From positions 7,310,869 to 7,374,868 of the forward strand of contig NC_088711.1 in the NCBI RefSeq assembly GCF_963576615.1: 64,000 nt of DNA. The letters run 5' to 3'. The notes beneath the pieces were generated by a model. That model was not told the DNA's origin. It made no database searches and was given only the letters and a program-made list of their open reading frames with translations. Of the stretch, positions 18,930 through 50,222 are shown one piece after another (within the stretch, counting starts at the first letter, position 1; each line of letters starts with the position of its first letter). This stretch comes from Watersipora subatra (taxonomy: Eukaryota > Bryozoa > Gymnolaemata > Cheilostomatida > Watersiporidae). The position numbers and the translations under genes were made by a program.

Positions 18930-20397
18930 TTAAGGCGCTGTGAAAATATTTTCAGCGAACAGCAGTTCCGGTGTCTTTGCTATTTTGAAATACGTGATAA
19001 GTGCACCGACTGCCAAATTTGAACTCGCGCAAAAGTTTTGTTGAATTTGTATGGTGAAAAAAGATTCATATAGTGATGTGAAAAAATCATTATGTTCCAC
19101 TGTGTAAGGTGAAAAAAATGATATACCTGAGTAAATCGTATCCTGAGAGTGCACTGTAATTACGATATCTAACGATTATCTAAGAGGCATTGCTTTGTGC
19201 TACAAGCTAAAGAAATACAAAAATACGATTCCATGAATAAAATGGAAAATGGAAAAACTAGTCAGCATGTGACTCAGCGTTTAGAACAAAAAATAATTGT
19301 ATTTGGTCCCGCAGTTGCCAGCGATCTTTCGACTGATCAATACAATGATAATTCAGATGATGATAGCGATGTAAACCACGAAGACTGAATATATATAGAG
19401 GAAAGTGAAGGTTATGGCAGCTCAGACAATGATAATGCTATATCCATTAGTGCCACTGTTGCGAGTACTAGTAAAGTGCCTCATAATAGCAACTCCAATA
19501 CAAGCAATACCTTGGCTATTAGCTCTAATACACCGGTTATTACAACTGAGAGATCAGAAGATGGAACATATGTAACCACACAGACTTTTAATGGTTGGAA
19601 AAATGTTATTGATTTAGATGGTGATAAGTCTTCATCAATCCACAATGTTTCCTCTCACTCAGTGCTCAACTTCACACCACCTGCTGATACATACCACGAT
19701 AGAATATTTTGATTACATCTTCCTTCCTGACCCAAGTGGGAGTAATTTGTGGAAGCTTATAGTAGCAGAATCTAACAAGTACTACGAGTATTATACACAT
19801 GTGAAGATGGGAGTTCTTAAACAACTATCCAAATTGCATTTATGGGAAAGTGTTACACAGGAGTGATTACGGGCATTTATTGGACTGTGTCTAAACAAGG
19901 GTTTGTGGAAAGCTTCAAACAATGCGACTTACTTTGATAAAAAGTATCACAGCCAAAACCATCTGGTATTTCGAGAGACAATGAAAGAGGACACCAATTT
20001 CATTTTCAGGAAACCAACCTCATGGTCAGATTCATGGTCACACTCGAGCAGAAGTAATGATCCTCAATACAAGTTTAGGAAAATTCAAGAACATTTGACA
20101 GCTAAAAGGCAACAAGGTTATGACCAGGTCAAAACCCTATCAACTGTAGTGGCAGAATACAATGCTGGAATGGGTGAAGTTGACATAGCTGACCAGATGA
20201 CTAAAACCTATGCTGATGTGAGAACAATGAAATCCTGGAAAAAATATCCTTCCATATCCTTGACAGAACAATGACTAATGTATACAGTCTATATAAGCTA
20301 AACCCCAATGGAACAGAGCTAATGGAACATAACTTTACTGTTGAGGTAATCGAAGGCCTGATCAGTGGTTACCAAGAGTTTCGTAAGCATGTTGGTA

Positions 20398-29051: not shown

Positions 29052-32000
29052 TTACTCTTCCGACATTGCCGGCAGGCCCTTGAACAAGTCGCAGTACTTC
29101 TCTTTGGAAATTATGCGTTTCAGGAAGTTAGCCACACCTTCTATCTTTGTTTTGTCCATGTCAGCCAAATAATTAACATCACTGTTGAAATGCAGAGGCA
29201 GCTGCTGAGACTGCAGAACTCCTTGAATGAGAACAATCATGTCTTTGAACCTGTTAATGAGATATATTCAACTTGTAACGGAAATGTGACAGCAGTGAAT
29301 GTATTGTGGGAAAACGACCATCAGCAGACAGTTTGACTTTAATTGGAACTAATTATGGAATATTTTATACGTGGTTTATGATACTTCAATATTAACCACA
29401 AAAACAAAACTAATACATTTATAAGTACCTTTATAGGGCCTTTATAAGTACATTTATAAGTACCTTATACCCTAAGTAGAGGTACTTATAGCCTAATTTT
29501 ACAGATATGCAGTGATAAAGAGTTCAAGTCCATGATATGCCACTGTTTATCATTACAAGCAATTTTATATAAATACAGCAATAGTTCACAAATCAAAGAA
29601 GTGTTTAACATTTGTCACTGTCACGCCTTTAACTAACCAATCAGCAAAGAGATCTATCTAACCAGGATGTCTTGCAGTGTAACATTAATCACCGAAAAGT
29701 GAAGACAACTCCCTCAGTTATTAAGTAATGCTAATTATTATCATAACGATAATTGTTATTAGTAACAATAATAATAATAATAGTTAAGTGCATTAAGCTT
29801 GTAAATCAAAATGGGACAAATAAAAATTTCTGTATTAAGCGAATACAAACGCGGAGTGAGATTGTCTCTAAGAAATGAACTGAATGGAGGTGACATGATA
29901 AAAGCTATCAATATTTGGACTGTGTCTGTATTCTGATAAACTGTTGAAAATTGCACAAATAAGAACTACAAAAAGTGAATAAAGAAACAAGGCAAATGAC
30001 CAATAGGTTGCTTTACCCAAAAACTAATGTAGTCAGGCTGTAGGCTCACTTGATAAAGGATGAGGTTAGCAGGGAACTAATATTAACGGAGAGCATGTTA
30101 AGAGCAAAAGAGCATAAATTATCAAACTATGTCAAGAACAAACAGAACGGTTGCAACAAGGTCCTACTTACGATCGAAAAAAGAGAACAAGACAAGACAG
30201 TTACAAAACAAACAGTACGAAAGAATGACTAAGAATAGAAAAAAGAAACCACCGCATGGACAGTACCTCTAACTGGTGCTTGACAAAGACCCAAACAAGA
30301 TCTACAATAGATAATATGTAGATATATAAAAAGAAAGACTGAAGGGATGATAATGGGAGACCAAAAAAAGACACTACTTGCAAGAGGATAGCATGTGGAT
30401 ATATAAAGAAGGAGACTTAAGGGTCGATAAGACTTGATTGAAGACTTGACTGATTGATAAGAGAGATTAAAGGGATAATAATGGGAGACTAAGAACAGGC
30501 ACTACTTACGAGATGGATAACATATGGATATATGAAGAAAGAGACTGAAGGGGTAATAATGGGAGACTAAGAACAGGCACTATCTATGAGATGGATAACA
30601 TGTGGATATGTGAAGAAAGAGACTGAAGGAATGATAATGGAGACAAAGAGAAGACACTACCTATGAGATGGATAACATATGGATATATGAAGAAAGAGAC
30701 TGAATGGGTAATAATGGGGGACAAAGAAAAGGCACTACCTATGAGATGGATAACATGTGGATATATGAAGAAAGAGACTGAAGGGATGATAATGGGGAAC
30801 AAAGAAAAGGTACTACCTATGAGATGGATAACATGTGGATATATGAAGAAAAAGACTGAAGGAATGATAATGGAGACCAAGAGAAGGTACTACCTATGAG
30901 ATGGATAACATGTGGATATATGAAGAAAGAGACTGAAGGAATGATAATGGAGACCAAGAAAAGGTACTACCTATGGGATGGATAATATGTGGATATATGA
31001 AGAAAGAGACTGAAGGAATGATAATGGGGGACAAAGAAAAGGTACTACCTATGAGATGGATAACATATGGATATATGAAGAAAGAGACTGAAGGAATGAT
31101 AATGGAGACCAAGAAAAGGCTCTACCTATGAGATGGATAACATGTGGATATATGAAGAAAGAGACTGAAGGGATGATAATGGGGGACTAAGAAAAGGCAC
31201 TACCTATGAGATGGATAACATGTGGATATATGAAGAAAGAGACTGAAGGAATGATAATGGGGGACAAAGAAAAGGTACTACCTACGAGATGGATAACATG
31301 TGGATATATGAAGAAAGAGACTGAAGGGGTAATAATGGGGGACCAAGAAACGGCATTATCTATGAGATTGAGAGAAGTAAACATGGTAAAAGTAATGATA
31401 GTACATGGAAAGGGGAGACCACGGTGTAAGATGTGTACGAAGGGACAGGAAATGATACTTTATATAATGAGTGAAATGCCCTAAACTGGCGAGTACAGTG
31501 TATAGAAAGCACCATGATGGTGTAGATAGACTGGTGTATTGGAATCTCTGTCAAATATATGGTGTTCTAATGTGTAACAAATGGTACGATCATCAAACAG
31601 AGACAATCATAGAAAATAAAAGTACAAAGACTTTCTGGGATGTGACAATACAGATGGACCATATGATTGTTGCTAGAAAACTAGATATTGTACATATAGT
31701 AAAATATAGCTTCTAGCTCATATACAGTCGATTGCTGAAACAGCACCATAAGATGAAAGCGTAAAATGTAAGGAGTTAAAAACAGTAGAGAAATATCAAG
31801 AGCTGTCGATGGAACCAAGGAAACTGTGATACCGATTGCGATTGGAATGCTTGGTATGGTTGAGAATTTGGAGAAGTTGACCACACTAGACAGAGAAGAA
31901 TAAGATCCCTAAAATGCAGTCTGCCGCTACTAGGGTCAGCAAGAATTCTGAGAAATGTGGACCTCTTAGGTTCGTTGTTTCAGCATGAGGTCCCAAACAC

Positions 32001-35000
32001 TAAACAAATCCGCGAAAAAAGTGGTGTGAAAAACCGCAATGATGATCATAAGAGTTAAGGCTTACTAATCAACAAGGTAAGTTTTTGAAATTACATTATT
32101 TTGTTTGATTTCATGCCACTGTACTTTTTGGTATCATCCTAAATGCACTATATAGTTGATGAATGCTCTCACCTGGGTGCTAGATCAGCTTTTGTATCCC
32201 AGTCAGCGAAGGGGTCCTTTTTGACCATCAAGAATAAGATGTTTTTGTAGAAGTAACTTGGAAAAATTCTAAGCTGTGAGTGGTGCTGTTTAATCAACTT
32301 CATGATACGCAGCAAAGTGTTTTTACGTCTAAACATAATCAGAAGACATGTTTAGTTACACTACTAGCTCAGTTTGCAATAGCTGAGAGTTATATAGAAG
32401 CATAACAATGTTATGTCTCACATTATGTCACGTTTGCTGTCCAGCTTTGCCAATATTTTAATTCTAAGAGAAAACCATTTCATTTATTTCTATTTATTTC
32501 CAACTGATCAATACTAGAACACAGCATTAGCAGTAGAATTTGAACTTTACTTACATTATCATAGACAATAAATAATAATAATTCAAACAATGCATTACAA
32601 AAACACCTGGATAATTGCCAGAAAAAGGCCGGGTAAAGTGATGTCAATGCGAATAGGAGACTTTCATTTGGGTTTCGACATTTAGTTGAGTTTCATTGTA
32701 AGGATGAGCATTTATTACTATACATTTATTACTATACATTTATTACTATACATTTATTACTATACATTTATTACTATACAGCGATCAATTTGTCACTATT
32801 TTTGTTATTTTTTACTAAATCATCAAAAAGTTATCCCATTTAAGTTGAGTTGATAAAAAGTAGGGCTAAGCAAATAACTTTTCCCCTATTTAAGAGCAAA
32901 GTTAGCATTAAAATGAAGAGGTTGATAATTATTAATCTTTAGCCATTGAAATGAAGTTTTGAGAATTCCAGTTTCAAGTACAAATGAGTAAATATCCTGT
33001 GTACATGACCATAGCAAGCCATTGCAAAGCTATAGCAAGCCATTGCAAAACATGCTGTTTACCTACACTTTGTTGGTCCGCGAATTAAAGGTAACAACTT
33101 CGAAACTTTTCAAGATAAGTTTTATAATTTGGGAAGAACAGGCTTGTCATATTTGTTTCAGCTTGAACAACTATAAACAAGCCTCTTTCAGCTCACAAGT
33201 AGTGAATATTACTTAGCAAAATACTGCTAAAAATTAATTAATTACAACATAACTTTCTAAAATTGTTTATTTTGAAGTGGGAAGATGTAGTGCTGATGCT
33301 CGCTTATCTGAATGTATGAGAGTATTTACTCACGGATGCTTAGAATGAAACTCCCGTAGCAGCTTAAGCTCATGGCTTGAATATGAAAGTCTCCAATATC
33401 TGTTGGCCAGAGTTGTTGATGATTTGGCATAGGGTTTAGCCACAAGATCAAACTTACTAAAATACACAGTAACTTACTAAAATACACAGTAACTTACTAA
33501 AATACACAGTAACTTACTATAATATGCAGTAACTTCATAAAACACACAGTAACTTACTACAATATGCAGTAACTTCATAAAATACACAGTAACTTACTAA
33601 AATACGCAGTGACTTACTAAAATACGCAGTGACTTACTAAAATACACAGTAACTTACTAAAATACACAGTAACTTACTATAAAATACACAGTAGCTTACT
33701 AAAATACACTGTAACTTACTAAAATACACAGTAACTTACTAAAATAAACATTAACTTACTAAAATACACAGTAACTTACTAAAATACACACTAACTTACT
33801 AAAACACACAGTAACTTACTAAAATACACAGTAACTCACCAACATACGCTGTAACTTACTAAAATACACAGCAACTTACTAAAATAAACAGTAACTTACT
33901 AAAATACACAGTAACTTACTAAAATACACAGTAACTCACTAAAATACGCTGCAACGTACTAAAATACCAAGTTGTATTAGTTTGGACATATTCAACAGAA
34001 GCTTAGAGAAAACCAACATTTATTCCTAAAGATAGAATTTTTGTGCTATTCACAATATTATGTACATGTACTTCGAGATTTAAAATTAAACAATTGATAT
34101 ATACCCTACATGGAACAATCCAGAATATGGATGCTACCTGTTTTTCATGTCTGCAGCTTTTAGACATACAACAATATCAATGCTGACCGTCTCTCCTCTC
34201 CACTTAACGTTGAGAGTTATTGCTGGACCACTAGTTGATCGTGTGATCTCAACGGTGTCACCTTTAAACTCTAGTCTCACGCTAGACATCTTTAATGCTT
34301 TGTCAACTGTACTCAGTACCAGTTTGCGGGTCTGTGTGTAGTGAATAAGAAACTATTTTAAGCAGTGCTATAAAGTTTGGGTAAATCTCAGGTATGTTTC
34401 CATGCATGTACTCGCAATAAAGGCATGTTAAATATACGGTTATCATCTTTCACTCGAGCAGCCCTTTCCTAACATACCTTTTCTGCGGAGAGGTATCCAG
34501 CTTCATCGAGCAAATCGACCGGTCCTCCTTTTACAAACTTCCACGCCGCATCATCGGATTCTAACACTTCAGCATCTCCAACCTTTTTACCATTGTGCTT
34601 TGAAATTGGAAGTTTAACAAAGAATTGGATATCAAAGTCAGACTTGCCAGGCAAAGCCGTAAACTCATATGTACTTCCCATGTATGAAACACCTGACCTG
34701 CAGATCTCCAGAGAGGGCAGGATAAACTTCTCTCCCACAAATTGCACGAGTGCTGCAAAATTGTAGTTGGATACATTGAATGTCTTATTAGCTAAATGAG
34801 CACATATTGGCAGTCAGTATGAACTGTCTTATTAGCTAAATGAGCACATATTGGCAGTCAGTATGAACTGTCTTATCTACTATATAAACGGCAATCGTTG
34901 TCTGTCTGTCTGCGTGTGAGATTGAGTGTCCGCCTTATAGATTACCGTACTTTTCAGACTATTACCCGCTACTAGGTATCTAGGGCGCGTTAACGGGAAT

Positions 35001-38000
35001 CTCCGGTTAGTACACACCTCTATACATGACCTATTCATCGTTTGCCGTTTTCACACAAAAATGACGTAATAATTACAACTCTATGGCTTTCTTTTAGCTT
35101 CATGACACGCGATGTTTTTTGTCCTCGACGTATTAGGGCTAATTTGTTTTCAGCAAAACGATATCGACAATAGACTCTTTCGATATTAGAACTTGGCGAT
35201 TAATTTTTACTAACTCTATGAAACACGATGCCGTTTTTGTGAACCTCTATTTCTGGCTTTTCTTAAAGGTTGATTTGCCACAAAATTCACATTACCGTTA
35301 TTAGATATGAAAAGATTCCCCATGTCTTACTCTGTTGTGATGTAGGTGCAAAATATGTGGAAAGGTGATTACAAGCTCTTAAAAGCTCAAAAACGAACAG
35401 AAAATCGCAGCCGTAGTTTGGATTCCCTTTCCAAAACGGCTCAAATGTGATGTAGTTGTGAGAGATGGTTTCTGTTTACACTTTCTTGCAACCTTATTCG
35501 TCGAAATATTTTCACAAATATACTTCACGCATTCAATAAAACTATGTCTATTGTTTTTACGTGTCTGCTTTATCGTCATTGTAATGCTGTCACTTTTAGC
35601 ACTGATATCTTATAACTTACCGTAAAAAATCATTAAACTTTTTAACCTTAGCTCGAAGGAGTACATATCATTGTCTGATAATCATGACGAGCCTGTTGGT
35701 CACCTGTGATAATCGAAAAGTGCTGCAAAAATTATTTGCGAAGTATTGGGTCACATGATCAGAGAACGACTTGACGATTGAATAATGCTGAAACAAAACT
35801 GTAAAGTAGCGAGCATCTATATTTGATAAGGGGTCTTCGGTAAAACCCGAAGTGTTTGTCATAAACTAGTACTACGATAAGTTTTATATTGAGCTTTGTA
35901 TTGGCCTTTCAATTCACGTGAGAACATACGTGACAAGACGATAACCAAATTTCGTGGTTACGTCATCGAAATAAAGAAATTCCAATCTACGGCGGCTTTT
36001 CGTTTTTGAGCTTTTAAGAGCTTGTAATCACATTTCCACATATTTGGCACTTACAACACAACAGAGTAAAACATGGTGAATCTTTTGATGCCAAATAACT
36101 GTAACGTGAATTTTGTTGCAAGTCAACCTTTAAGGTTTAATTGCTAAATCGCTGTTAAGGTCACTAATTTTCATGCAAACAATTGCATTATCTCGAGTAG
36201 GAATAGCATCCAGATTCCCTCACCTTCCATCAGACAAAGACATTACAATATTTTATTTTTTACATAACATATCGTCATACTGGTATCGTCGTATTCAGAG
36301 TTTTGATGTATAGCTGTTGGTGGAACAGTAACTTTTTTATACACACACTTCTATGCAAGAATTGTTATTATTAATTCAACATATTCACAAATTTTATTTT
36401 GTTTTCTCAGTTCGTATTAATTGTATCATTACCGAAGCATCTCATATTGTAATTGTAGCAAAACAGACTCAATTTAGCTATTGCTTGCTAATTATTTTAC
36501 TGTTACATCTAAACCATTTTATAGTCGTCTTATTCTTAAAATTTATTTGACCTGCACGAAACATTTTTCTCATGATATGAAGTTTGAAAGTTACAGTTGT
36601 TTGACAAAGTTTGATCAACTTTACAGTTGTTTTTAATTTCTCTTTATTTCAACTACACAAAACACTTTTCTCATGATACGTTACCTATTATGTTTTTTCA
36701 TGTTACCTATGTAGTTTGAATGTTAGAATGGCAAATGTTGTTATATATATTAAATACAAATAGATTTTCTGTGCAAAGACTTTTTTATTACCCAGGTACA
36801 AGTACAGTTTATGGTGTCAAATGTTGAAAAAATACTTTACCGAAGTTGTTTTCTCGCCTTGGAGCGGAGTAAAATTTACATTATTTTATTTTAATGGGAA
36901 AAATTGTTTCGGATCTCGAACAACTCGGTTTTCGAACTACCTTCTGGAACTGATTATGTTCGAGAACTGAAGTTCAACTATACGTTATCAAAAGATATAG
37001 GTCGCTGAAAGTTATGAAATTTTAAATTTACATTGGTTTGAAAACCTTTACAGTTGTTTTATTCTCTCTCTTAATTTATTTCAACTACACAAAACACTTC
37101 TTTCATGGTATTTAGTTTGAAAGTTAGAATGGCAAATGTTGTTATATGTTAAATACAAATCAATTTTCTGTGCAAAGACCTTTTTTACTACCCGAGCAAC
37201 GCCGGGTAGCACAGCTAGGGTTGGGGCCGTGGCGTCACTCGGGGATGAACGGGAGACCTTCTTTGCCCCGAGTACAGCGAGAGTTTCCAAGGGTGGCTTT
37301 CCGGATGAATGAGTTGGCGAGTGCGAGGCAATTGATTGCAAAGCGATAGAGTGCTAGGCAATTGGTTGCGAGACGATTGGTTGCAAGTGCAAGGTGATTG
37401 ATTTCCAGGCGAGTGCGAGGTGATTGATTGCAAGGCGAGTGCGAGGCGAGGCGAAGCGAGGCGAGGCGAGGTGAGGCGAGTGCGAGGCGATTGATTGCGA
37501 GGCGAGTGCGAGGCGATTGATTGCGAGGCGAGGCGATATATTGCGAGGCGATTGATTGCGAGATGAGTGCTAGGCGATTGATTGCGAGGCGATTGGTTGC
37601 GAGAGGATTGGTTGCGAGTGCAAGGTGATTGATTGCGAGTGCGAGGTGATTGATTGCAAGGCGGGTGCGAGGCGACTGATTGCGAGGCGACTGATTGCGA
37701 GTGTGAGGCGATTGGTTGCGAGGCGAGTGGGAGGTGATTACAAGGCGAGTGCAAGACGACTGATTGAGAGGTGATTGATTGCGAGGAGAGTGCAAGGCGA
37801 TTGATTGCGAGGCGGTTGCGGGCCGATTGATTGCAAGGCGAATGATTGTGAGTGCAAAGCGATTGATTGCGAGGTGAGTGCAAGAACGCGATTGTCAACT
37901 GCTCGGCGGGTAAAGACAGGTCAGCCGAGGCGGGGCACAGCGGCAGAAGTGCGTGATCGTCATCTACAAATATAGACGAGGGTGAACGGATGCATGAATC

Positions 38001-41000
38001 TAGAATATTTACGAGATTTTACACTCGTCTAGCTGTAAGACACATTGCAGATTTCCATTGTTCTCCCTAACATTGACATGTATATGTGCATGCATTCTCT
38101 GATCAGTACAATTTCAGTAGACTGCACATTTGGAGTTGTTTTACAGTATGAAAGACAACTCTCAATAAACTTTATGCTGCTCGTGAATCTTTTCCTGTAG
38201 ATGGGTAATGCAGCTAGTTAGCTATATAAGCACATATTGGCAGTCAGTATGAACTGTCTTATTAGTTGTATGAGCACATATTGGCAGTCAGTATGAATTG
38301 TTTTATTAGCTACATGAGCACATATTGGCAGTCATTATGAACTGTCTTATTAGCTATATGAGCACATATTGGCAGTCATTATGAACTGTCTTATTAGCTA
38401 TATGAGCACATATTGGCAGTCAGTATGAACTTGGCTACATAAATGTATGCTTAAAGAAATATTCACCAACAAATATCTGTACCGATGTGACTCGGCGACC
38501 TATAACATTACAAGGTGAATGCTCGGCATTGCACGGGTAATAAAAAAACGAACAAGAACATATAATTTATTTTTACTCAACCGGTACAACATTTACCATT
38601 TTAACTTTTAAATGAAGGTGTTTGTTTATTTTTGTGTACTGTGTTTATTTCTGTGTAATTCATAGTGCACAAGCTGCAGTGCCTACTACAGATCTATAGT
38701 AATTGCAAGTCCTGTTGACCATGTGAGCTTAAGCATTTTTCTTCAAGTATGGGCACACATTATTTTTTGGTATAACTTCATGCATAACGCGAGCTGCAGT
38801 GTTAAGTGTGAAGTCATGAAATTTTGGCATGTCTAATAAGTATTTACCAAATTTAATCCATAGTATAATCAATTGGACAGCATAGAGCATTAGATAAAGG
38901 CATGTCTGCAGAACTGGAGGTTTTGAGTTCAAATCCAGTGCGCAGTAGATTTTCCATTCGCAAAACTTCATAGGTATAGCTGAAAACGTGGACAGGCTTA
39001 GAAACAGACAAACATTAAAATTCATATACATTATATAGATTAGCTGAATTTCCGGCAGTAATAAAAAATCTTTGCACAAAGAATTTATGTTTTTTTAATA
39101 TATACAGCATTTACCATCATAACTTTAAAGCGTCATATCATGAGAAAAATTTATTGTGCAGTTCAAATAAATTGAGAGAAAGACTAAAACAAGTGTAAAG
39201 ATGTTTAATTATGAAATAATTCGCAAGTAATGGCTAGATAAAACCTGTTTTGTTACCATGATTGCAACGAAAAGTGATTTGATACTGATACATCTACAAA
39301 TAACTGATAAAACAAATTATAATCATGAATATGTTAAATTAATAATAACAATGAGTGCATAGAAGTGTGTATAAAAAGAGTTACTGCTGTTGCAGAATTT
39401 ATTCATAAAAATTTTGAATACGCCGATACTGGTACCTCTCAATAATGGCACAAACTCGGTAGGCTGTGTTGCATGAGCAACACTGCCTCAAAGTTTGTAG
39501 AGCTTTTTCCGATAGGGAGAAATATATTCCCAAGCTCGGTTAGCTGCGCTGCATGAGCAGCCACCGCCTAGAGCTCAGCGAGTTTTTCTAAATAAAATAT
39601 GCATGACCGATGCTCAAGGAGTGTGGACCAAGAGACGGACCAACTGGCAGAGGTTTTTGAATGGCTGTCAATGGCACCCGGACTCAGGTCCCGGCTCACC
39701 AGTTCAAATCACCTCAATACTCAGATACTGGAGATTTGGAGTGTTTCAGCCAAAGCCAAGTGGTAGCCGTAGCCAATGTCTGGACTGAGGAAGCTGGCTT
39801 GCTACACTTCTGAAGGGCCTTGAAGGAAGAGGCAGAGAACTGCGGACAGGCCGACTAGGTGTAAGCCATCTTGGATGCGCTTCGCGCCTGGTTTGGCCTC
39901 TTGCCTAGGCAGGCTCGCAACAAGCTGAGCACCCTGAGTCACGCATAGCAACCTCTCTTCAGGAGCATGTCTGCCAGGTGGAATCTGAATGGCATATGGC
40001 AATCTGCTGGGTCTCTATAGGACCGACATGGCCAAGAAGCTGTGTTGCAGCTCGGTCAACCATGTCGACCTGCAAAGACACCTACTAGCTATGCTCACAG
40101 TTACTTTAACAGAGACTGTGCATGCCAGCACGGAGTTCCTACAAATGAAGCCCAAGGGCAAGGGGTTCACTGACATCCGGACTGTAGAGAAAGTCTCAGA
40201 GAAACAGGCAAATGTGGTGCGTGACCGTGCAGTCAGTCAATTGGCCCGGCTCATGCAGCAGCTGACACAACAGGTGTAGCAGCTGCGACAGAAGAGAAAC
40301 CGGCCCTAGAAAAAAAGTCGAAGCTTCAACAGTGCTGTGGCTGTAGGGGTTCTGGTACATGTGCCAGCACTGTTCCAAGAAGCTATTACATCGGAAATAT
40401 GGCAACGAGCCGCAACAGTTACTGTAGTGCCGACTACTGTTGGACTAAGTACCTCAAACCCGTGTTTCTCCGACAAAAGAAATTCAGCCAGCCCTGTGTT
40501 GTGGCCCCATCGTAACAACCAGCCTGGCCAGGCCATGACTGAGGGAATACGGCCAGGAAAAACTTCAGCCCAGAAGGACTGGCGCTAAGATGGGAAGCTG
40601 GAAAAGAAAAGGTCTCCTCCTGCCAGGTTGGCTGTAAAAAAATACACTCACCATGGCTCTCCAGAACCACTATCAAGCCCTGAAAGATCTGAAGTCCGGA
40701 TCCACGAGGACGGGCCCAACATGCCAGCATGTTCAAGTCAGACTGCACCTAGCTGCCCAGCTTGAAGCCTGTTTGAGAACCAGTGGGAGAGGAACTGGTC
40801 GGTGCAACGTCAAAATCCCGTCATTACGGTCGGACTGACGTGTTTCCCTTTGTTTACCCCTACTGATTTAGCACTTCAGGAGCTCGCTCCAAGTGTGTGG
40901 GTCTCCAGGTTGCATCCCAGAGAGGGTAAGGAGAATGACAACTCAATACGCCTTCGGATGCCTACCTTGAAGGTGGTAGGGCCGACTCATGGTACACGGA

Positions 41001-44000
41001 CTTGTCAGACCTCGCAGACACCCCAGAACGCCGCTTTGACAACTTCAAAAAGGTTCAAAGGAGATGGGTCTGCTTGGCTTAGCGGCAGTGGTACTTAGCC
41101 AATCCAGGTGCAAGCACTGAGTTGGCTTCACTCCACCAGCTACTTCTTCTTCGGGAAGTTGGAGTAGGGACCCATTCAGTTTTTGCTTGACACCTAGTGT
41201 ACTTCAAACCTGCTGAGTAAGCATATGTTCAACAAGCTTCCTCAGGCCACGAAGGGCTTGTTGGAGAAAAAGCGACAGTCATGGGCTCATGACCAATAGG
41301 ACTGAGCTGTCCTTTTACGGAGTTGTACGGCTACCTATACGACTTCGAGATGTAAATGCCGAGGAAGTCTTTGTGGTGAGTCAGGTTAGCAAGGACACTA
41401 TATTAGGAATGGCCTTTCTGGTGACACACCAATATGCTATGGAGTTCCAGCAGCCCATGCTATCAGTGAGCAATCGTTCGTTGACCTGTATAGACAGATA
41501 CGGTCGGTTGCTGCTCAATCAAGTCCAGGTAGTACTCGACCTGGTGGTGCCAGCCAGAAGCGAGATGGCCATACCGTGCAGAGTAAGGAACGTAAATTAC
41601 TGCCTATTGGGAGCGATTGAGAGATGTTCGAATGTGCCGCTGCTGGCTGCAAGCTTAATCCGGTCTGGGTCAAAGGGAAGCCTCGTGGCACAGTGTCTCA
41701 ATTTTATGAATCTGCCTCTCCACCTCCAAGCTAGCACTACAGTAGGCATGTACATAAGGATAGAGTACATTACCAGGTAGATGATCAACCATCTATCCCC
41801 GGCTCGGAGTAGGTGCAGGTGCAGATATGCCGGTGCAGATATGCCGAAGAGAGGTGGGCCGGCCCTTCTGACAGACCTTTATGTGGCAGCCCATTGCAAC
41901 TGCACAAAGCCAAAGCAGGTTGAATGACTGGCATGGCTATTGACACGCTACCACAGCATGTTCAGTACCAGGGATGGGGATATGGGCCAGACATTTGAAG
42001 TGAAATATTCCATTCCACTCATGGAAAATACCCGCTCTATTTGCCAGCCACCACACCAACTGGACTTGGACAATGAGGCAGAGGCTGAGCGTCAAGCTGG
42101 AGAGCTATTGGACAAAAGGCTCATTGAGCTGGCTGGTGGCGCATGAAGCTCCCGATGGTGTTTGTTTGAAAAAAAGGATGGAAAGTGGCGCTTCTGCACT
42201 GATTACCGGTGGCTAAATGCAGTCACTAAGCAGAGCGCCTACTTTCTTCTCCAGATCAATGACAGCCTCGATAGACATAGACGCACAAGAAAAGCCAGCT
42301 TTTATTATCCGCTCCAATTTCTGGTAATGGAAGGACCTGCTCTTTGGGTTCGCCCCGGCACCAGCCATCTTCCAGAGGTTGATGGATTGAAGTGTTACAC
42401 GGCTTGCATTGGAAGACATTGCTGTTCTACATAGATAACATCATAGTCATTGCTCCCCAACCTCGACACCCACTTAAAGCGGTTAGAGGAGGTATTCCAG
42501 AGATAGAGCTAGCTTAAAATTAAAGCCGTCCAAGTGTGAGCTCCTCCGGTTGCAGGTCCTGTATCTAAGTCATGAAGTGAGTGCAAGAGAGATAGCTGTT
42601 GAATCAGACACAACCCAGGCAGTCCATCAATGGCCAACCTCTAGGGAATTCCAGTAGGGGTAAGCAAAGAAAAACACGTCAGTCCGACCATAAGCTACAG
42701 AGCTTTTTGGGAATGGTACGGTATCACAGACAATACATTCTCAGCTTCACTGCTATAGCCCGGTCTTTGAACCGGCTTACGAGCAAAAAAGAGGAGTGAA
42801 TGTGGGGCCAGAACAAGCAAGCAGCCTTTGACACATTGAAGGAGCATCTTTCCTCGGCTCCTGCGTTGAAGTACTCAAATTCGAGTCTACTGTACCTCCT
42901 GAATACGGATGTCAGCAGCTGCAAAGTGGAAGTGGTACTATCCCAGGGGCAAGAAGGGGCTGAGAGAGTGATAGCCTTTTTCATTAAAACACTGACCGCC
43001 GGAGGAGAGGAATTACTGCGTGACCCGGAGAGAGCTGGTTGTCGTGGTAAACTCTATGAAACATATACAGCACTGCGTGTTGTATAGGTATACACACGTA
43101 GTTTTTCCTACGCATGGATCTAGCCTCTCCTGTATTGATGGGAAGAGCTCTTAAACCAAGTAATCAGATAGTTGGATATCTTGGCCAAATTCTAGTTTAC
43201 ACTTGAGCACCAAGACAGTCTCCGTCAAAGAACGCTGATAGACTCAGTCGACAGACCTGCAAAGACTGTTGGCAATGCGAGCTCATTGAGCTGAGATATG
43301 GAGTACCGACTTGCAGAGAACTTGCTCTGGAAAGCCAGCCTCTCTCGATTGGACTCAAGAAAAGTCCACTCACCATCTCGGGGTCGCCAAAGCCGCGTGC
43401 GATATGGTCGGTCGAATGGGCCTGTTTACTGCTACTACAGCTAGGGAGCCAGCCCAAGTCTGATCGACGCCACTCTGAGACACGGCACGAGTGAAGACTC
43501 GAGAAACCACTAAAAAGGAGCTGGTGCAGATGCAAATCATTAGCCAGGGACTGGTGGCTACCATGTACTACACTGCCCCGTGAGCTGAGGAGCTGACTCG
43601 GGAGTAGTTAGAGCTTGGAGGCCAAGAACTCTGCCACTCGCATAAAATTCATTCATTCCTCAGGCTACGATCTAGCGGGTTACTGGAGGCTCGGACTTCT
43701 CTTCATGGCCAGTCACCATGGTGCACGGTATGTCCACAAGCCATCATGAAAACAGCCATCTGGCGGACTTTATGCCCTTGCTCACTCTGGGGTGAGTAGG
43801 ATGATTAGCTGGCTGCGACTGATCTGGTATTGACCAGGGATGACAGCCATAGTGAGAAGAGTGATCAAGAGCTGTGAGGTCTGTCAGGTAACGAAGCACA
43901 GTAGCACCAAATCAGCCGGCGGCAGGCATAGGCTCTATGCCAGGCACTCCTGGCAGAAGGTGGCTGTTGACCTGGTGGGGCCGATGCCGGAGACTCTGAG

Positions 44001-47000
44001 AGGGATTAAGTGAATCCTAGTGCTGACAAAATACTTCACAAGGTGGTAGAATGTCAGTCTCCTGGGGGCCACAGCTCTAGTGGTGGCAAATGCGATAGGC
44101 GACCAGGTGTTTTGCTACATAGGATTACTAAAGCAAATCTACATCGACCAGGGTGCACAGTTTGCGAGTCAACTGATGACTGAGCTGTGTCGAAGCTGAC
44201 TGGTAAAAAAACTCACAATTCACCCTAATACCCCCAAGCTAATGGTATGGTCAAGTGCAATAATCAACAGCTGGGCGATTTTCTGTGAGCCCTACTGCTG
44301 ACCTGGGGTCCGGAGGAGTGGGACAGGTTACTCCCTCAACTGATGCAAGCGCATCATGAAACGCCCCAGAAGAGATGGCCAACTTGCTGATGCTCAGACG
44401 AGAGTTACAACTTCCAGATCAGCTAAAGTTCAAGTCCCCACTACCAGAGGTTCAGTACTTGCATGAGTTGGTAGTGGAGACGTTGAAGAGACTAGATGAA
44501 GCACACATGGCTCTCTGAGAGAAGTAGATGGCAATAGGCAAAAAGCCCAAAATAAGCCTCCAATGTATATACTGGGAGACTGGGTCTGGCTCCTAATTAA
44601 AAGGAGAAGGCAAGGAGACAATCCTGAACTGCAAGCAAAGTTAGTAAAACTTTTCCTAGTTAAAAAGCTCTGGCTAAGCCATACTTGTCTGGTAGAGCCA
44701 CAGACAGGACCAGTCCTCAGTGCAAAGTGAGAGCAGGCTGAAACCCTTTCATGCCTTACCAGAGGAGCTTGGTCTGGCACCGGTCACCATAGAGCCACAA
44801 AGAGGGCCCAAAATGAAAGGAGCAAGGGCTAACAGACAGAAAAAAGAAGTAGAGTTAGAGCTAGTCAGACAAAGGACCGAAGCCTACACCTCCCCTGCTT
44901 TCAGCAAAGAGCTGTAAAGTTGACTGCAGGAGCTAAGAAGGTGACAAGAACCGGAAAACAGCAGAGATGGCAGAAACAAGAAATTCCGAGAGCTAGCCCG
45001 GCTCGCGAGTGCAGCACCTGCCCAGTTTCCTAGCCCAGAAAAAAAGCTCCTAGGGTCACTAGGCATAACCTCCAGCTAGCCTGAAGCATTCGGCCACCTG
45101 CCCGTTTTGGAGAGTAGGAGTGGTTAACCATGATAACAGCTAATCAGGATTTTCACAGGCGTAGTGCTGCCAGAGTCCCAGTAAGCAGAGGTGCTGAGAA
45201 AAAGGTGCTATAAGGCATTTTGTTTCTGCACTTTGAAAAGAATCAGTCAAGCTCAGCATTCCTCTTACATATAAAACTAATGAAAGTTTTCAAAAACTCA
45301 TTTAAATGTTAAAAAACTCAGGCAAAAACCTACACTCCCTGGCTGAGATGCTGAAGTCACTAGGGTCCACAAAAGAGGAGTTGCTGGAGGTTTTGCTGGA
45401 GTCAGAAGAGGAGACTGCATCTGTATGTCAGAGCCCGGGCCCGGCTGCCTCAGAGAGTACGACTGAGCTCTCTGGCAACTCAAAAAAGTACTTTGAGGAG
45501 GCTGTTTCCTTGGACCAATATGTTATCAACTGAAAGGCTCGAGTTGAAACACACTTGGTCGACACTCTAGCCACGATATTTCTGAGCACTATGTCAGCGA
45601 TGGTATCTGGGAACGAATAGAAGACAACTAAGGGAGCCCGGCACTTGTGGCATATATGGAGTCACTATGAGCGCATGCAGGAGCAAATAACATGCGGCAC
45701 AGCATTTCACTGTGTATGTCTGTCCCTGCCGCTATCAACATGTCCCTGGGATCATCTGATGGTTCGGGGAAAATCCTACTGAGCTACCAAGTGCAGCAGC
45801 GCGGTATACCTGGTCAACCGGGCTCGCTGGTAATCCTTTCTGCGTGCCAGAGGGTGGACGGTTGACCTGGAGATTCTGCCCTGCCAACCAACATTGATCA
45901 TGGTCGACTGCCCTGCCAAATGGCAAGCAGCCCAGTCTGCTATCACCCAAAAACAAAAGAACGCTGGTTGAGAGCCTCACGCCGGCCTCGCAGCACCACG
46001 TCTTTGTTGAGCCCATCACCACTGGGAGCTCATGACTCCCCACCTAAAAAGAGGGTGACCAGGACTACAATGCTGCCAAAGAAGCATAAATCTGCCCCCT
46101 TCCCTTTGATGGCAATGGAACCATAGAGCAGAACAGATCGACTGACTCGCCTTGCAGGCGTTTCACCAGCAGGCGAGGCTTTGTATTGACACAAAGAAAA
46201 CGGGGCCCAGCAGCTGCTTAAGGATAGTCGGCAATTACAGCAGATGGCAATGCAGACTTGCCAACTTATCAAGAGCCGGTGCCTTAGAGGAGCTGATAGA
46301 GCAATTGCTAAGACCAAGGTAGCCAGGTTGGAGTTTGTTATCTGGCGGCAGTGGTTCTGGTCATAGATGATTTTTTCTAGCGCAGAGTGGACAGCCCTAG
46401 GGCAGGAATTGGGGAAAAGTGTTACCGCAGAGCCCCGTGACACGTAGCGATTGACCTCCTGGCCTCCACCGTCACCGGGCCAAGCTTTTCGGTCACAGGA
46501 AAAGGCTCAGTCTCTATTGAACATGCCCGGACACCCGTACTAGAAGACCGAACATAAAACAAAGAGATAAGTTGGCAGAGCCTACAAAGGAGAAAATGTA
46601 TAAAACGAGCACAAAACAGTCGTTTCAGCAGTTTTAAGCGCACACTCTCTGCATGTTTGCATATAATGTATAACTGCTTATCTTACATGTATGCTGATGT
46701 ATATTTATTTATTTAAATAGAGATGTCATTGGAGTTTAACACTTAATGTTATTGCTTGACTGTCTTGCGGAGAATAAAGAGAATCTTTTACATGTAAAAC
46801 TAAGACATCTGTGTTTGGTTAAATCAAGTTTGTTATTCAAGTTCAGGTGTATTTGAACTACTGAATAAAAAGAAACAAGTAGGCATAATGTCAATATGGA
46901 AACTAATTATAAAACCGAAGCACACGTGTTTGGTTAAATCAAGTATCAGTGTGTAGGACAGTTATCAGCAAGGTCATAAAACATCAGCTAATTATAACCA

Positions 47001-49119
47001 GTAGGCTACATATTTTAACAGAATAGACTAACAGAAACCTGAAAACATAAGTTCAAAGTCAGGTACCTGGTTTTGTTTTTTCATTTTCAGAAAGCTCAGC
47101 AGAAAGATGATGGTGCTCAATGCTTCTTAGCATCTTGCCCAACTCCGAGTCATCACCGCTTGGACGGCTCAGCAACTTTCTCTGCTCTGTGTAAAATGTT
47201 TGATATTACTACATCAAAGCATTGTTAGAGTATGGTTAAAGTATACTACAAGGGTCCTAAAAAAGTTGATATTTTTTTTTAAGGAGATTTTTATGTAGGA
47301 GAGTTTGGTGCCTTTCAGCACCAGAGGCTTAGCATGTTAATAGGTATGTGAATGTGATACCATGATACTCATTAATGGTTGAGACAGCCAAACTGGGTAA
47401 AACTTGGAAGGCCTATATAACAGATGATGATCAGTAGGATGAACTAAACACCTATAGAAGAACAACGCAAAGCTCTATTCAAGTCATTCAAGCAGTCAGT
47501 TTAGAGCTATGTTATGAGATGCAGTTACAGCTAGACTCCAAGCCTTATGCTGCATAATCTATGCAGACTATGTTATGAGATGCAGTTGCAGCTAGGCTCC
47601 AAGCCTTCTGCTGCATAATCTATGCAGACTATGTTATGAGATGCAGTTGCAGCTAGACTCCAAGCCTTCTATTACATGATCTATGCAGATTTCAATATCA
47701 TACAAGGCCTTTTCACATTGTTCACCCTGAAATTAATATATGTGATACAGGGAATTATTGGTTGGCAGTTGCCATATCCTTTTGTCTAGATGTGATTTTT
47801 ATAACAAACCCTTGTAGATCTAACAACTTGTGGAACTTTATATTTGTAAGCCTTGTTTGTTGTAGTATCATTTTTGAATGTAACATCTTGGTTTCTTTGA
47901 CTAACCTTGAGTTGTCTTGACTAGCTCTGAGTTACCTTGACTAATGTTGAGTTTTCTTAACTAACCTTGAGTTGTCTGACTAGCTTTGAGTTACCTTGTC
48001 TAACCTTGAGTTTCCTTTGATAACCTCGAGTTGCCTGACCAGCTTTCAGTTACTTTGACTAGCATTGAGTTACCTCGGCTAACCTTGAGTTACCTTGACT
48101 AGCATTGAGTTGCCTTGACAAGCCTCGAGTTACCTTGACTACTATTGAGTTACTTTAACTAGCTTTGAGTTACCTTGACTAGCTTTGAGTTACCTTGACT
48201 AATCTTGAGTTACCCTGACTAACCTTGAGTTACCTTGGCTAACCTTGAGTTGCCTTGACTAGCCTTGACTAACCTTGAGTTACCTTGGCTAGACTTGAGC
48301 TTTTGTTTCCTTGACTACCTCAAGATTTTCCAAATAACTGTTTTCATGTTCTGAACTCTTCTATGAAATAGCTAATGATATACTCTCTTCGAGCAACAGT
48401 TACAAACTAAATTAAAAATAAACTATTGCCACTGAGTTGAAGGAACTATTATGGCCAACTATTAAGGTAACATCTCCTTAGTTTAAGATATACATGTAAT
48501 ATTACTTATAAACATACTTTGTTCTCTAGTTTGAAACTATTCTGAACCTACCTTCATGACCACAGCTCACTTTTATCAGAACTGTACATCTAAACAAAGC
48601 GGTGCGGCTAAATATCTTTGAGTATTTATCATCTAGCTAAAGTTAGAACAAGTAGTAGAAATTAGTGTGGTATATGTGGTATATAGTAGACTTACCGGGT
48701 CTACTTGTTGCTTGAACATCACCTTTCTGTAAACCATCTGGTTGAGAGGCTGAGTTCTTTCCTAGCGTTTGCTTTTTGATTTCCTTCACATCCACTTCCA
48801 GGTTTTCCAGCCGATCCTTTATTCGCTTGAGAGTAGTGAGAATCTCATCTACACGTGACTCCATGATAGTTATAGTGTGTTCCTGGTGTACGAGTGTAGG
48901 GATGAAATAATTACATATATTACTACCTTGTTGATTTATTTCTGCCACAGACTGTTCCCTACTGAAATGTAGCAATCATGTATGTATGTATATATTGTGA
49001 CTCACCGCCAGCTTTAGTTCCTCAATTAAATTGATTTTGTTGACTGTCTCAAGTGCTACAATGATATCACTATCAGTGAAACCTGATATTTCAAACAAGT
49101 ATGGTATCAATTTCATCAT
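29052..49119 (-). CDS. cGAS-like receptor (cGLR), Mab-21/cGAS nucleotidyltransferase
   Basis: Eight coding exons on the minus strand: 49119-49006, 48882-48696, 47186-47067, 34752-34478, 34331-34138, 33456-33334, 32328-32173 and 29250-29052. All seven introns are GT-AG with matching phases, giving 455 residues and a TAA stop. Residues 1-38 are helical and about 44-77 form a coiled coil. The nucleotidyltransferase core follows: G166-S167, D179-F-D181 (the same 12-residue step as in cGAS) and D284 in VSIDIVV; GPAITL at 267-272; W318-R-L-S; then the helical C-lobe with SYFYKN and QQLPLHFNSDVNYL. In animals such enzymes sense nucleic acid and make a cyclic dinucleotide that acts through STING; this role is inferred. 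The zinc-thumb His/Cys cluster of vertebrate cGAS is absent (FHSKHPRKN). The start is the first Met after an in-frame stop, with A at -3; an extra upstream exon is possible. Introns are loaded with repeats and transposons. Confidence 0.93.
30380..31365. repeat. 78-bp minisatellite, about 12 units
   Basis: The unit includes GAGATGGATAACATGTGGAT, then ATATGAAGAAAGAGACTGAA, GGGATGATAATGG and a GAAAAGGCACTACCTAT tail. Because 78 is divisible by three, frames stay open on both strands and repeat every 26 codons. The array lies in the last cGLR intron, between exons 32328-32173 and 29250-29052. It is not regarded as coding. Confidence 0.92.
32705..32780. repeat. 14-bp tandem repeat
   Basis: ATTTATTACTATAC is repeated about five times. 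It lies in the cGLR intron between exons 33456-33334 and 32328-32173. Confidence 0.85.
33451..33965. repeat. 20-bp minisatellite that includes a cGLR splice acceptor
   Basis: About 25 units of AACTTACTAAAATACACAGT with scattered changes. Read on the minus (gene) strand, each unit gives TGTGTATTTTAGTAAGTT, which holds both an acceptor-like TTTTAG and a donor consensus GTAAGT. The final unit supplies the AG at 33458-33457 used by the catalytic-core exon 33456-33334, whose first bases TAAGTTT come from the repeat. Confidence 0.93.
34788..34875. repeat. 44-bp minisatellite, left part (split by Helitron)
   Basis: Two full units of a 44-bp repeat containing AGCACATATTGGCAGTCAGT. The array stops at CTTA (34875), where the Helitron begins, and resumes in register at 38218. 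It lies about 35 bp upstream of the acceptor for cGLR exon 34752-34478. Confidence 0.92.
35267..36129. mobile_element. TTAA-flanked MITE, copy 3, nested in Helitron
   Basis: AGGTTGATTTGCCACAAAA at the left and TTTTGTTGCAAGTCAACCT at the right, with TTAA at 35263-35266 and 36130-36133. Same family as 4409-5828 and 16781-17688. It inserted in the Helitron or was carried with it. Confidence 0.85.
37300..37890. repeat. G-rich satellite with strong strand asymmetry
   Basis: Irregular repeats of GCGAGGCGATTGATT and GTGCGAGGCGA words. The plus strand is rich in G and poor in C over nearly 600 bp. Because the words repeat, long frames (227 and 186 codons) open on the minus strand, but they encode only a low-complexity Asn-Gln-Ser-Pro-Arg pattern and are not genes. 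It lies between the two 3' ends of the Helitron. Confidence 0.88.
38218..38432. repeat. 44-bp minisatellite, right part
   Basis: Nearly five further units of the 44-bp repeat, beginning TTAGCTATATAAGCAC exactly where the left part broke off. Confidence 0.92.
38873..38945 (+). repeat. tRNA-derived SINE head (degenerate)
   Basis: A B box GAGTTCAAATCC at 38925-38936 is preceded at tRNA spacing by AGCATAGAGCATTAGAT, a decayed A box. The stems are not maintained. Probably a fossil SINE in the cGLR intron. Confidence 0.5.
39420..46680 (+). mobile_element. Decayed Ty3/Gypsy LTR retrotransposon
   Basis: Domains lie on the plus strand in the Ty3/Gypsy order, in many short frames broken by stops and frameshifts. 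A possible gag remnant spans 39600-41100. A retropepsin-like part is at 41289-41780 (around SKDTILGMAFL). Reverse transcriptase is near 42160-42430 (KKDGKWRFCTDYRWLNAVTK), RNase H near 42800-43087, integrase zinc finger and core from about 43770 to 44200 (CEVCQ; WQKVAVDLVGPMP; YIDQGAQFASQL), and a C-terminal part to about 44720. Positions 44720-46650 have no recognised domain. I could not identify LTRs; a ~50-bp repeat (CTCGGTAGGCTGTG / CTCGGTTAGCTGCG) lies at 39450-39575. It is inactive and sits antisense in the third cGLR intron. GC content is clearly higher than in the surroundings. Confidence 0.88.
47508..47690. repeat. 61-bp tandem repeat, three units
   Basis: The unit starts TATGTTATGAGATGCAGTTG and ends CATAATCTATGCAGAC; three near-identical copies lie in the cGLR intron between exons 48882-48696 and 47186-47067. 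Confidence 0.88.
47890..48300. repeat. 20-bp minisatellite
   Basis: About 20 diverged units of TTGAGTTACCTTGACTAGCT in the same cGLR intron as the 61-bp repeat. On the gene strand it is a purine- and AG-rich array. Confidence 0.9.
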
Positions 49120-50222
49120 TGTTATCTTAACAAAAGACGTGGGACATGAGCTTATCAAGGGAATTCCCCCTGACTAGCACTATCATTGACCTGACAGAAT
49201 GTTCTAAAAAGAAATTTAGTTGGACCACCATTATTATAATAAAACTGACTTTTCTATTTCGTGATATTGGAGCTTTGGTGTTCTATACTAATTTACATAA
49301 GGATTCTCTGCAATGAATACTTGCACTGCGTAAGAGTGTCTCTGAATAGATATGACTGTCATCTATTAGACTGACTGGCAAATTTCCTACATAACTTCTT
49401 TTACCAACTATCACACAAAATTGTATAGATTTTGCAGAACCTTGCATATTTTTCAGATATATATACAAAACTTGAGATATTTCTAAAAGTTAACCACTAA
49501 TAATAATAGCACCTCTAATGACTGCAGTTTTTACCGGTGACCCACTCTGGCACAAAGCCAAGTCAATCAAAAGGACCTGTTCAAAGTCTATTGTCATGTC
49601 TATTTGATAAAGAACCACCTGCTGGCCTCTGCCATACAGTAAGTTAGACAAGCCTTGTCTGGTTAGACCATCCTAGCCTGTCTTGACAAACTGTTGTTTT
49701 TGCGGAGTTGTCCCCCGTCGAGCAGGCGAGCAACATGTTCAAGACAGGCTAAGACCATCCATGCTGATTAATTGATGACAATAACGCTATGGCAACTAGA
49801 AAATATACATATGCGTGTATATATATATACATGTATATATACTTTTCAATATAAAGAATTATCTATAGAGTTTAAAATCATTAATTATATTGACATATCT
49901 TGTAGTATTTTATAAAAAAATACATACATGTACAGTGAAATCTATATGGCAACTCTGGTAATTAACATCAAAAATGATAAATGTGAAAACTGTGAAATGC
50001 CATGTAAACAACGATAGCTCAACATAATCTAGCTGGGAGAATACGCTGCCAAACCAGCATATTATTATTTACTTTGTATCCAAAAAAACAAAAATGCAAA
50101 TATTACTGCATCTGTTACCATAAAATTAATAAAGAATGATTTGTAATGAAGTTGTGCACATAATAAGGTTTACAGTTGTTTCTTCTAAAAGCGTCAAAAT
50201 CGGTCAGAATCATAACTATGTT

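Follow-up and report, generated by a model that had tools for sequence, protein, structure and literature searches.

The 64,000-nucleotide stretch analysed here (the window, C4:7310869-7374868 of a 784-Mb assembly) carries on its minus strand a predicted gene for a cGAS-like receptor (cGLR), in eight exons between positions 49119 and 29052. This is the window's own gene, designated copy A; three paralogues, copies B, C and D, lie elsewhere in the genome. Exon 1 (49006..49119, residues 1-38), proposed and doubtful, is an open frame with a good donor, and exon 2 (48696..48882, residues 39-100) specifies a predicted coiled coil. These are followed by exon 3 (47067..47186, residues 101-140), exon 4 (34478..34752), which encodes the nucleotidyltransferase core with its G-S and D-x-D motifs, exon 5 (34138..34331, residues 233-296), exon 6 (33334..33456), which carries W318-R-L-S at 33395-33384, exon 7 (32173..32328), coding for the Mab-21_C helical lobe, and exon 8 (29052..29250), which includes the stop codon. 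All seven introns are GT...AG and the phases agree across every join, and the eight exons and 455 residues described in an earlier note, made from the letters alone and naming no strand, were exactly reproduced. Its description of the gene as complete goes too far for residues 1-38.

Several repeats lie within the gene. A tandem array of a 20-base unit (25.8 copies, 33451..33967, minus strand) runs up to the acceptor of exon 6; each unit resembles that acceptor, copies B and C have similar sequence at the corresponding position, and the array lends itself to studying how the genuine acceptor is selected. A 44-base tandem repeat unit just before exon 4 (34777-34876) occurs again 3.3 kb away (38218-38431), and intron 7 contains a 78-base tandem repeat of 11.7 copies (30462-31368). 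Within intron 3, antisense to the gene, are plus-strand open frames that by eye resemble an LTR (gypsy-like) retroelement (approximately 41217..44515); one of these frames was scanned and gave no Pfam match. Pfam searches of ten of the 91 frames in the window yielded two matches that barely exceeded the cut-off, a PNRC motif and a transposase, and nothing related to cGLRs; the transposase match, to DDE_Tnp_1_7 (1.4e-6), is in the frame at 19867-20271.

The further copies were found by searching the same genome with a 428-residue model as the query. Copy B (7264983-7282702) lies on the plus strand of the same contig, 57 kb from copy A and inverted relative to it, and likewise gives 455 residues, from exons identical to those of copy A in length and phase; only the donor of exon 1 has been lost. 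Copy C (7293103-7297154) has six exons, equivalent to exons 3-8 and in the same phases, while copy D (13299417-13294293) consists of six pieces that share the borders of exons 3-8 and read through without a stop. The borders of exons 3-8 are common to all four copies, and exon 3 and the acceptor of exon 4 can be regarded as settled in copy A because copies C and D show them. They also rule out the 428-residue model itself, a seven-exon structure with an exon at 48632-48552, where copy B has an 18-base insertion and no donor; the 455-residue model was restored. The genome search with the 428-residue model found no match to exons 1 and 2 near copy C or copy D.

Over exons 3-8, the comparison of copies A and C gave a dS of 0.72, a dN of 0.198 and a dN/dS of 0.28. 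The dN/dS of B-C was 0.32, that of A-B was 0.48 with a dS of 0.054, and comparisons with copy D were saturated at synonymous sites. The shared exon borders, the A-C ratio and the Pfam cut-offs passed (see below) confirm that the gene is real and not a product of chance.

Copies A and B are unevenly similar, with identities of 100% in exons 3 and 5, 98.5% in exon 4, about 93% in exons 7 and 8, and 87% in the 5' flank. This pattern suggests sequence exchange between the inverted copies over the middle of the gene, with unequal constraint as the alternative. Intron 3 and exons 3-5 (34138-47566 of the window) are mostly 97-100% alike, the outer blocks 84-93%, and exon 2 96.8%. Copy B is without about 2.2 kb of the intron 3 of copy A (45272-43062).

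Copy A might be a recent, non-expressed duplicate, the function being carried by copy B (or C), as could be argued from the low A-B dS of the core, the dN/dS of 0.48 that accompanies it, and the 12.3 kb, repeat-bearing intron 3 of copy A. Its frame and splice sites are nevertheless intact, and it is copy B, not copy A, that has lost the exon 1 donor, so we consider a silent copy A quite unlikely.

Two other relatives were seen in the genome. At C4:13283905-13261073 (locus E, L015-L017) are pieces matching exons 4, 5, 7 and 8, together with a W-K-V-S piece; G-S is kept, while the first acid is replaced by Gly and the third by Asn, and these cGLR-like pieces, which may belong to one gene, likely mark a dead relative. 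A separate Mab-21 gene (L022, C2:23097916-23098230) is a long single open frame, with MB21D2 as its nearest PDB chain (4.9e-14). It was the one place returned by a PF03281 family search of the genome, and since this search missed the window's own gene, it gives no count of cGLRs in the genome.

The protein of copy A matches two Pfam models above their cut-offs: Mab-21 (PF03281, nucleotidyltransferase domain) at residues 179-331, with an E-value of 1.2e-15, the core with G-S and D-x-D lying in exon 4, and Mab-21_C (PF20266, helical domain) at residues 341-433, with an E-value of 7.3e-9, in exons 7 and 8. Homology therefore spans both the nucleotidyltransferase core and the C-terminal helical lobe, as membership of the cGLRs asks, and the assignment to the Mab-21/cGAS family proposed from the sequence is upheld. 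A profile of copies A-D was compared with PDB chains, and the top match among the 49 distinct sequences listed was 8gjy, 'cGAS-like receptor 1' (7.7e-13). It was followed by 4jlx (1.4e-10), a chain listed as 'Uncharacterized protein' which we take to be pig cGAS, by 7lt2 (2e-9), and by other cGAS chains from about 8e-9. MiD51 scored about 1e-6, and MAB21L1 was last among the 49 listed (0.0084). On placement relative to the MAB21L clade, the profile search, a ranking rather than a tree, scores copies A-D nearer to cGLR/cGAS than to MAB21L1, with a gap of roughly ten orders of magnitude in E-value between cGLR1 and MAB21L1. Since the MAB21L1 chain is present in the library, its low rank is not an absence; in a single-sequence search with the 428-residue model, it was not among the 19 PDB matches at E-values up to 10. 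The matches differ in what they cover. That to 8gjy is good over the helical lobe only, and its G-S/D-x-D stretch is unaligned, the corresponding part of the 4jlx match is weak when taken alone (i-E 0.012), and 7lt2 alone gives an unbroken alignment across the active site. We take 7lt2 to be the cGLR of Tribolium castaneum, in keeping with PMC8410604.

The catalytic residues expected of a cGLR, G-S and three acids, are all present in copy A. G166-S167 (34673..34678, minus strand, as are the positions that follow) is invariant in copies A-D, as are the acids of D179-F-D181 (34631..34639), which are aligned to E-F-D of 4jlx and 7lt2, and the third acid, D284 (34176..34178), which is aligned to Asp in both chains. 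W318-R-L-S is likewise invariant in all four paralogues, and thus every element of the catalytic layout listed in the earlier note was recovered, including its cGAS-like spacing: 11 residues lie between S167 and D179, and G-S and E-F-D of 4jlx are equally spaced. The cGLR motif of Li et al. 2023, h[QT]GS-X8-20-[DE]h[DE]h-X50-90-h[DE]h (PMC9980059), is departed from at two places, since M165 precedes G-S and 100 residues lead to I-D-I, while the remaining positions fit. The 7lt2 chain breaks the motif at the same two places, with G ahead of G-S and 118 residues in the gap, and the Tribolium enzyme has been reported to be activated by dsRNA (PMC9980059). Failure of the literal pattern is therefore no argument for inactivity, and the gene is classed as a cGLR by its catalytic residues rather than by the pattern. 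Nor does an intact site mean that activity will be measured; of 140 cGLRs purified in the same study, 15 were selected as active enzymes, although products were made by 'many' (PMC9980059).

It is also conceivable that the protein belongs to the Mab-21 family without still making a second messenger. MAB21L1 and MiD49/51 are thought to act as nucleotide-binding or scaffold proteins, and the departure from the published motif, along with the loss of two catalytic acids at locus E in the same genome, would fit a similar role. Against this, the catalytic residues are kept in four of four paralogues, A-C divergence shows a dN/dS of 0.28, and cGLR1 and cGAS outrank MiD51 and MAB21L1 in the profile search, leaving a non-enzymatic role unlikely. 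We prefer to read the gene, with good confidence, as an intact animal cGLR, probably from an invertebrate and probably active. The family is large and has expanded in several invertebrates, and since 3,020 cGLR enzymes have already been catalogued (Li et al. 2023, PMC9980059), the gene is a further member of a known family.

The coiled coil that had been proposed to lie ahead of the enzyme is well predicted. It occupies residues 49-76 (48769..48852, minus strand), comprises four heptads, and scores 7.4 on a home-made heptad score, a value that none of 2000 shuffled versions of exon 2 reached. Exon 2 of copy B, in which the donor is kept, has the same score. A scan of the copy A locus picked out exon 2 and one lower-scoring segment, probably due to chance, and the same heptad scan found no coiled coil in the stretches scanned upstream of copies C and D.

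Exon 1 is less secure. Of the claim for a 38-residue N-terminal segment, the open frame and good splice sites stand in copy A, but the donor is lost in copy B (GTGAGT to TTGAGT). Pfam gave no match for this exon, and a possible likeness to the latter part of a death-effector fold is speculation. A set of 29 PDB matches to TAL-effector repeats was dismissed as an artefact, because many weak repeats were summed and no single stretch passes. An alternative start, M45, is found within exon 2 at 48864 and would give 411 residues; its context, ATCATGG, is strong by the Kozak rule. It is slightly better than an even chance that the enzyme core is right and the N-terminus is not, exon 1 being non-coding and translation beginning at M45 or in an unseen upstream exon. 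The lost donor and the M45 context point this way, as do the identities between copies A and B, which are no better in exon 1 (91.2%) than in intron 1 (91.1%) and reach 96.8% in exon 2, and the end of A-B similarity at 49272, just upstream. On the other side are the good donor and acceptor in copy A and the ten A-B substitutions in exon 1, of which six are synonymous and four non-synonymous (P ~0.02 under neutrality, assuming that 75% of changes are non-synonymous); this excess is the only positive sign for exon 1 beyond its splice sites. Translation of exon 1 in the modelled form is a little less likely than not, and a non-coding exon 1 is compatible with an intact cGLR.

If the gene is an intact cGLR, as we favour, its charge and its lack of a zinc ribbon may hint at the ligand. 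The calculated pI is 8.92 for the whole protein and 9.33 for the core, while residues 1-140 are acidic (5.62); nucleic-acid-sensing cGLRs are given pI values above 8.5, by another pI method than that used here (Li et al., PMC9980059). The zinc-ribbon cysteines are absent, as there is no Cys between W318 and C443, the sole Cys after W318, and insect cGLRs are also without the ribbon (PMC8410604). Because the core is basic and without a zinc ribbon, dsRNA would be a likelier ligand than DNA. The nucleic acid would bind the basic groove of the enzyme and order the active site, where the three acids would coordinate metal ions and a cyclic dinucleotide would be formed from two nucleoside triphosphates. 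The product most often detected in the family is 2'3'-cGAMP (PMC9980059). The dinucleotide could then be read by the genome's own STING: the STING ligand-binding domain has two matches on C10 (32856410-32863661), 7 kb apart (1.0e-9 and 6.6e-4), the open frame of the first resembles STING on visual reading, and the presence of STING exons is supported at the level of sequence. In copies A and B, the predicted coiled coil is likely to allow pairing or clustering of the enzyme. A bolder scheme, in which A and B represent a coiled-coil class of cGLRs whose activation threshold depends on prior assembly into a dimer or oligomer and not on ligand alone, the inverted copies exchange sequence over their catalytic block, and a catalytically dead locus E competes for ligand or assembly, strikes us as very unlikely.

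The gene model is well supported, its relatives include intact and probably dead copies, and STING exons are present in the same genome; the picture of the cGLR family is left unchanged. Together these form a small natural set in which to follow how ligands and products are shared out among cGLR duplicates, and any effect of an N-terminal coiled coil on activation. As published, 87% of cGLRs are without an extra domain, while known fusions include those with ankyrin, TPR and death domains (PMC9980059). No coiled-coil cGLR was among the matches listed in literature searches on extra cGLR domains, although one may still exist in print. Only the predicted coiled coil makes this family member a little unusual.

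Compared with known systems, the closest likeness is to the cGLRs (8gjy, 7lt2), with which copy A shares both lobes, the lack of a zinc ribbon, and G-S and acids that align to those of 7lt2. It differs from them in the Met before G-S and in the predicted N-terminal coiled coil of copies A and B, and from 7lt2 in having W-R-L-S in place of W-S-L-S. With vertebrate cGAS, it has in common the catalytic residues, W-R-L-S, the spacing from Ser to the first acid and, in the helical lobe, S-Y and K, but not the zinc-ribbon cysteines. MiD51/MiD49 and MAB21L1 belong to the same fold family; the former score below cGLR1 and cGAS, and the latter stands at the foot of the profile matches listed.
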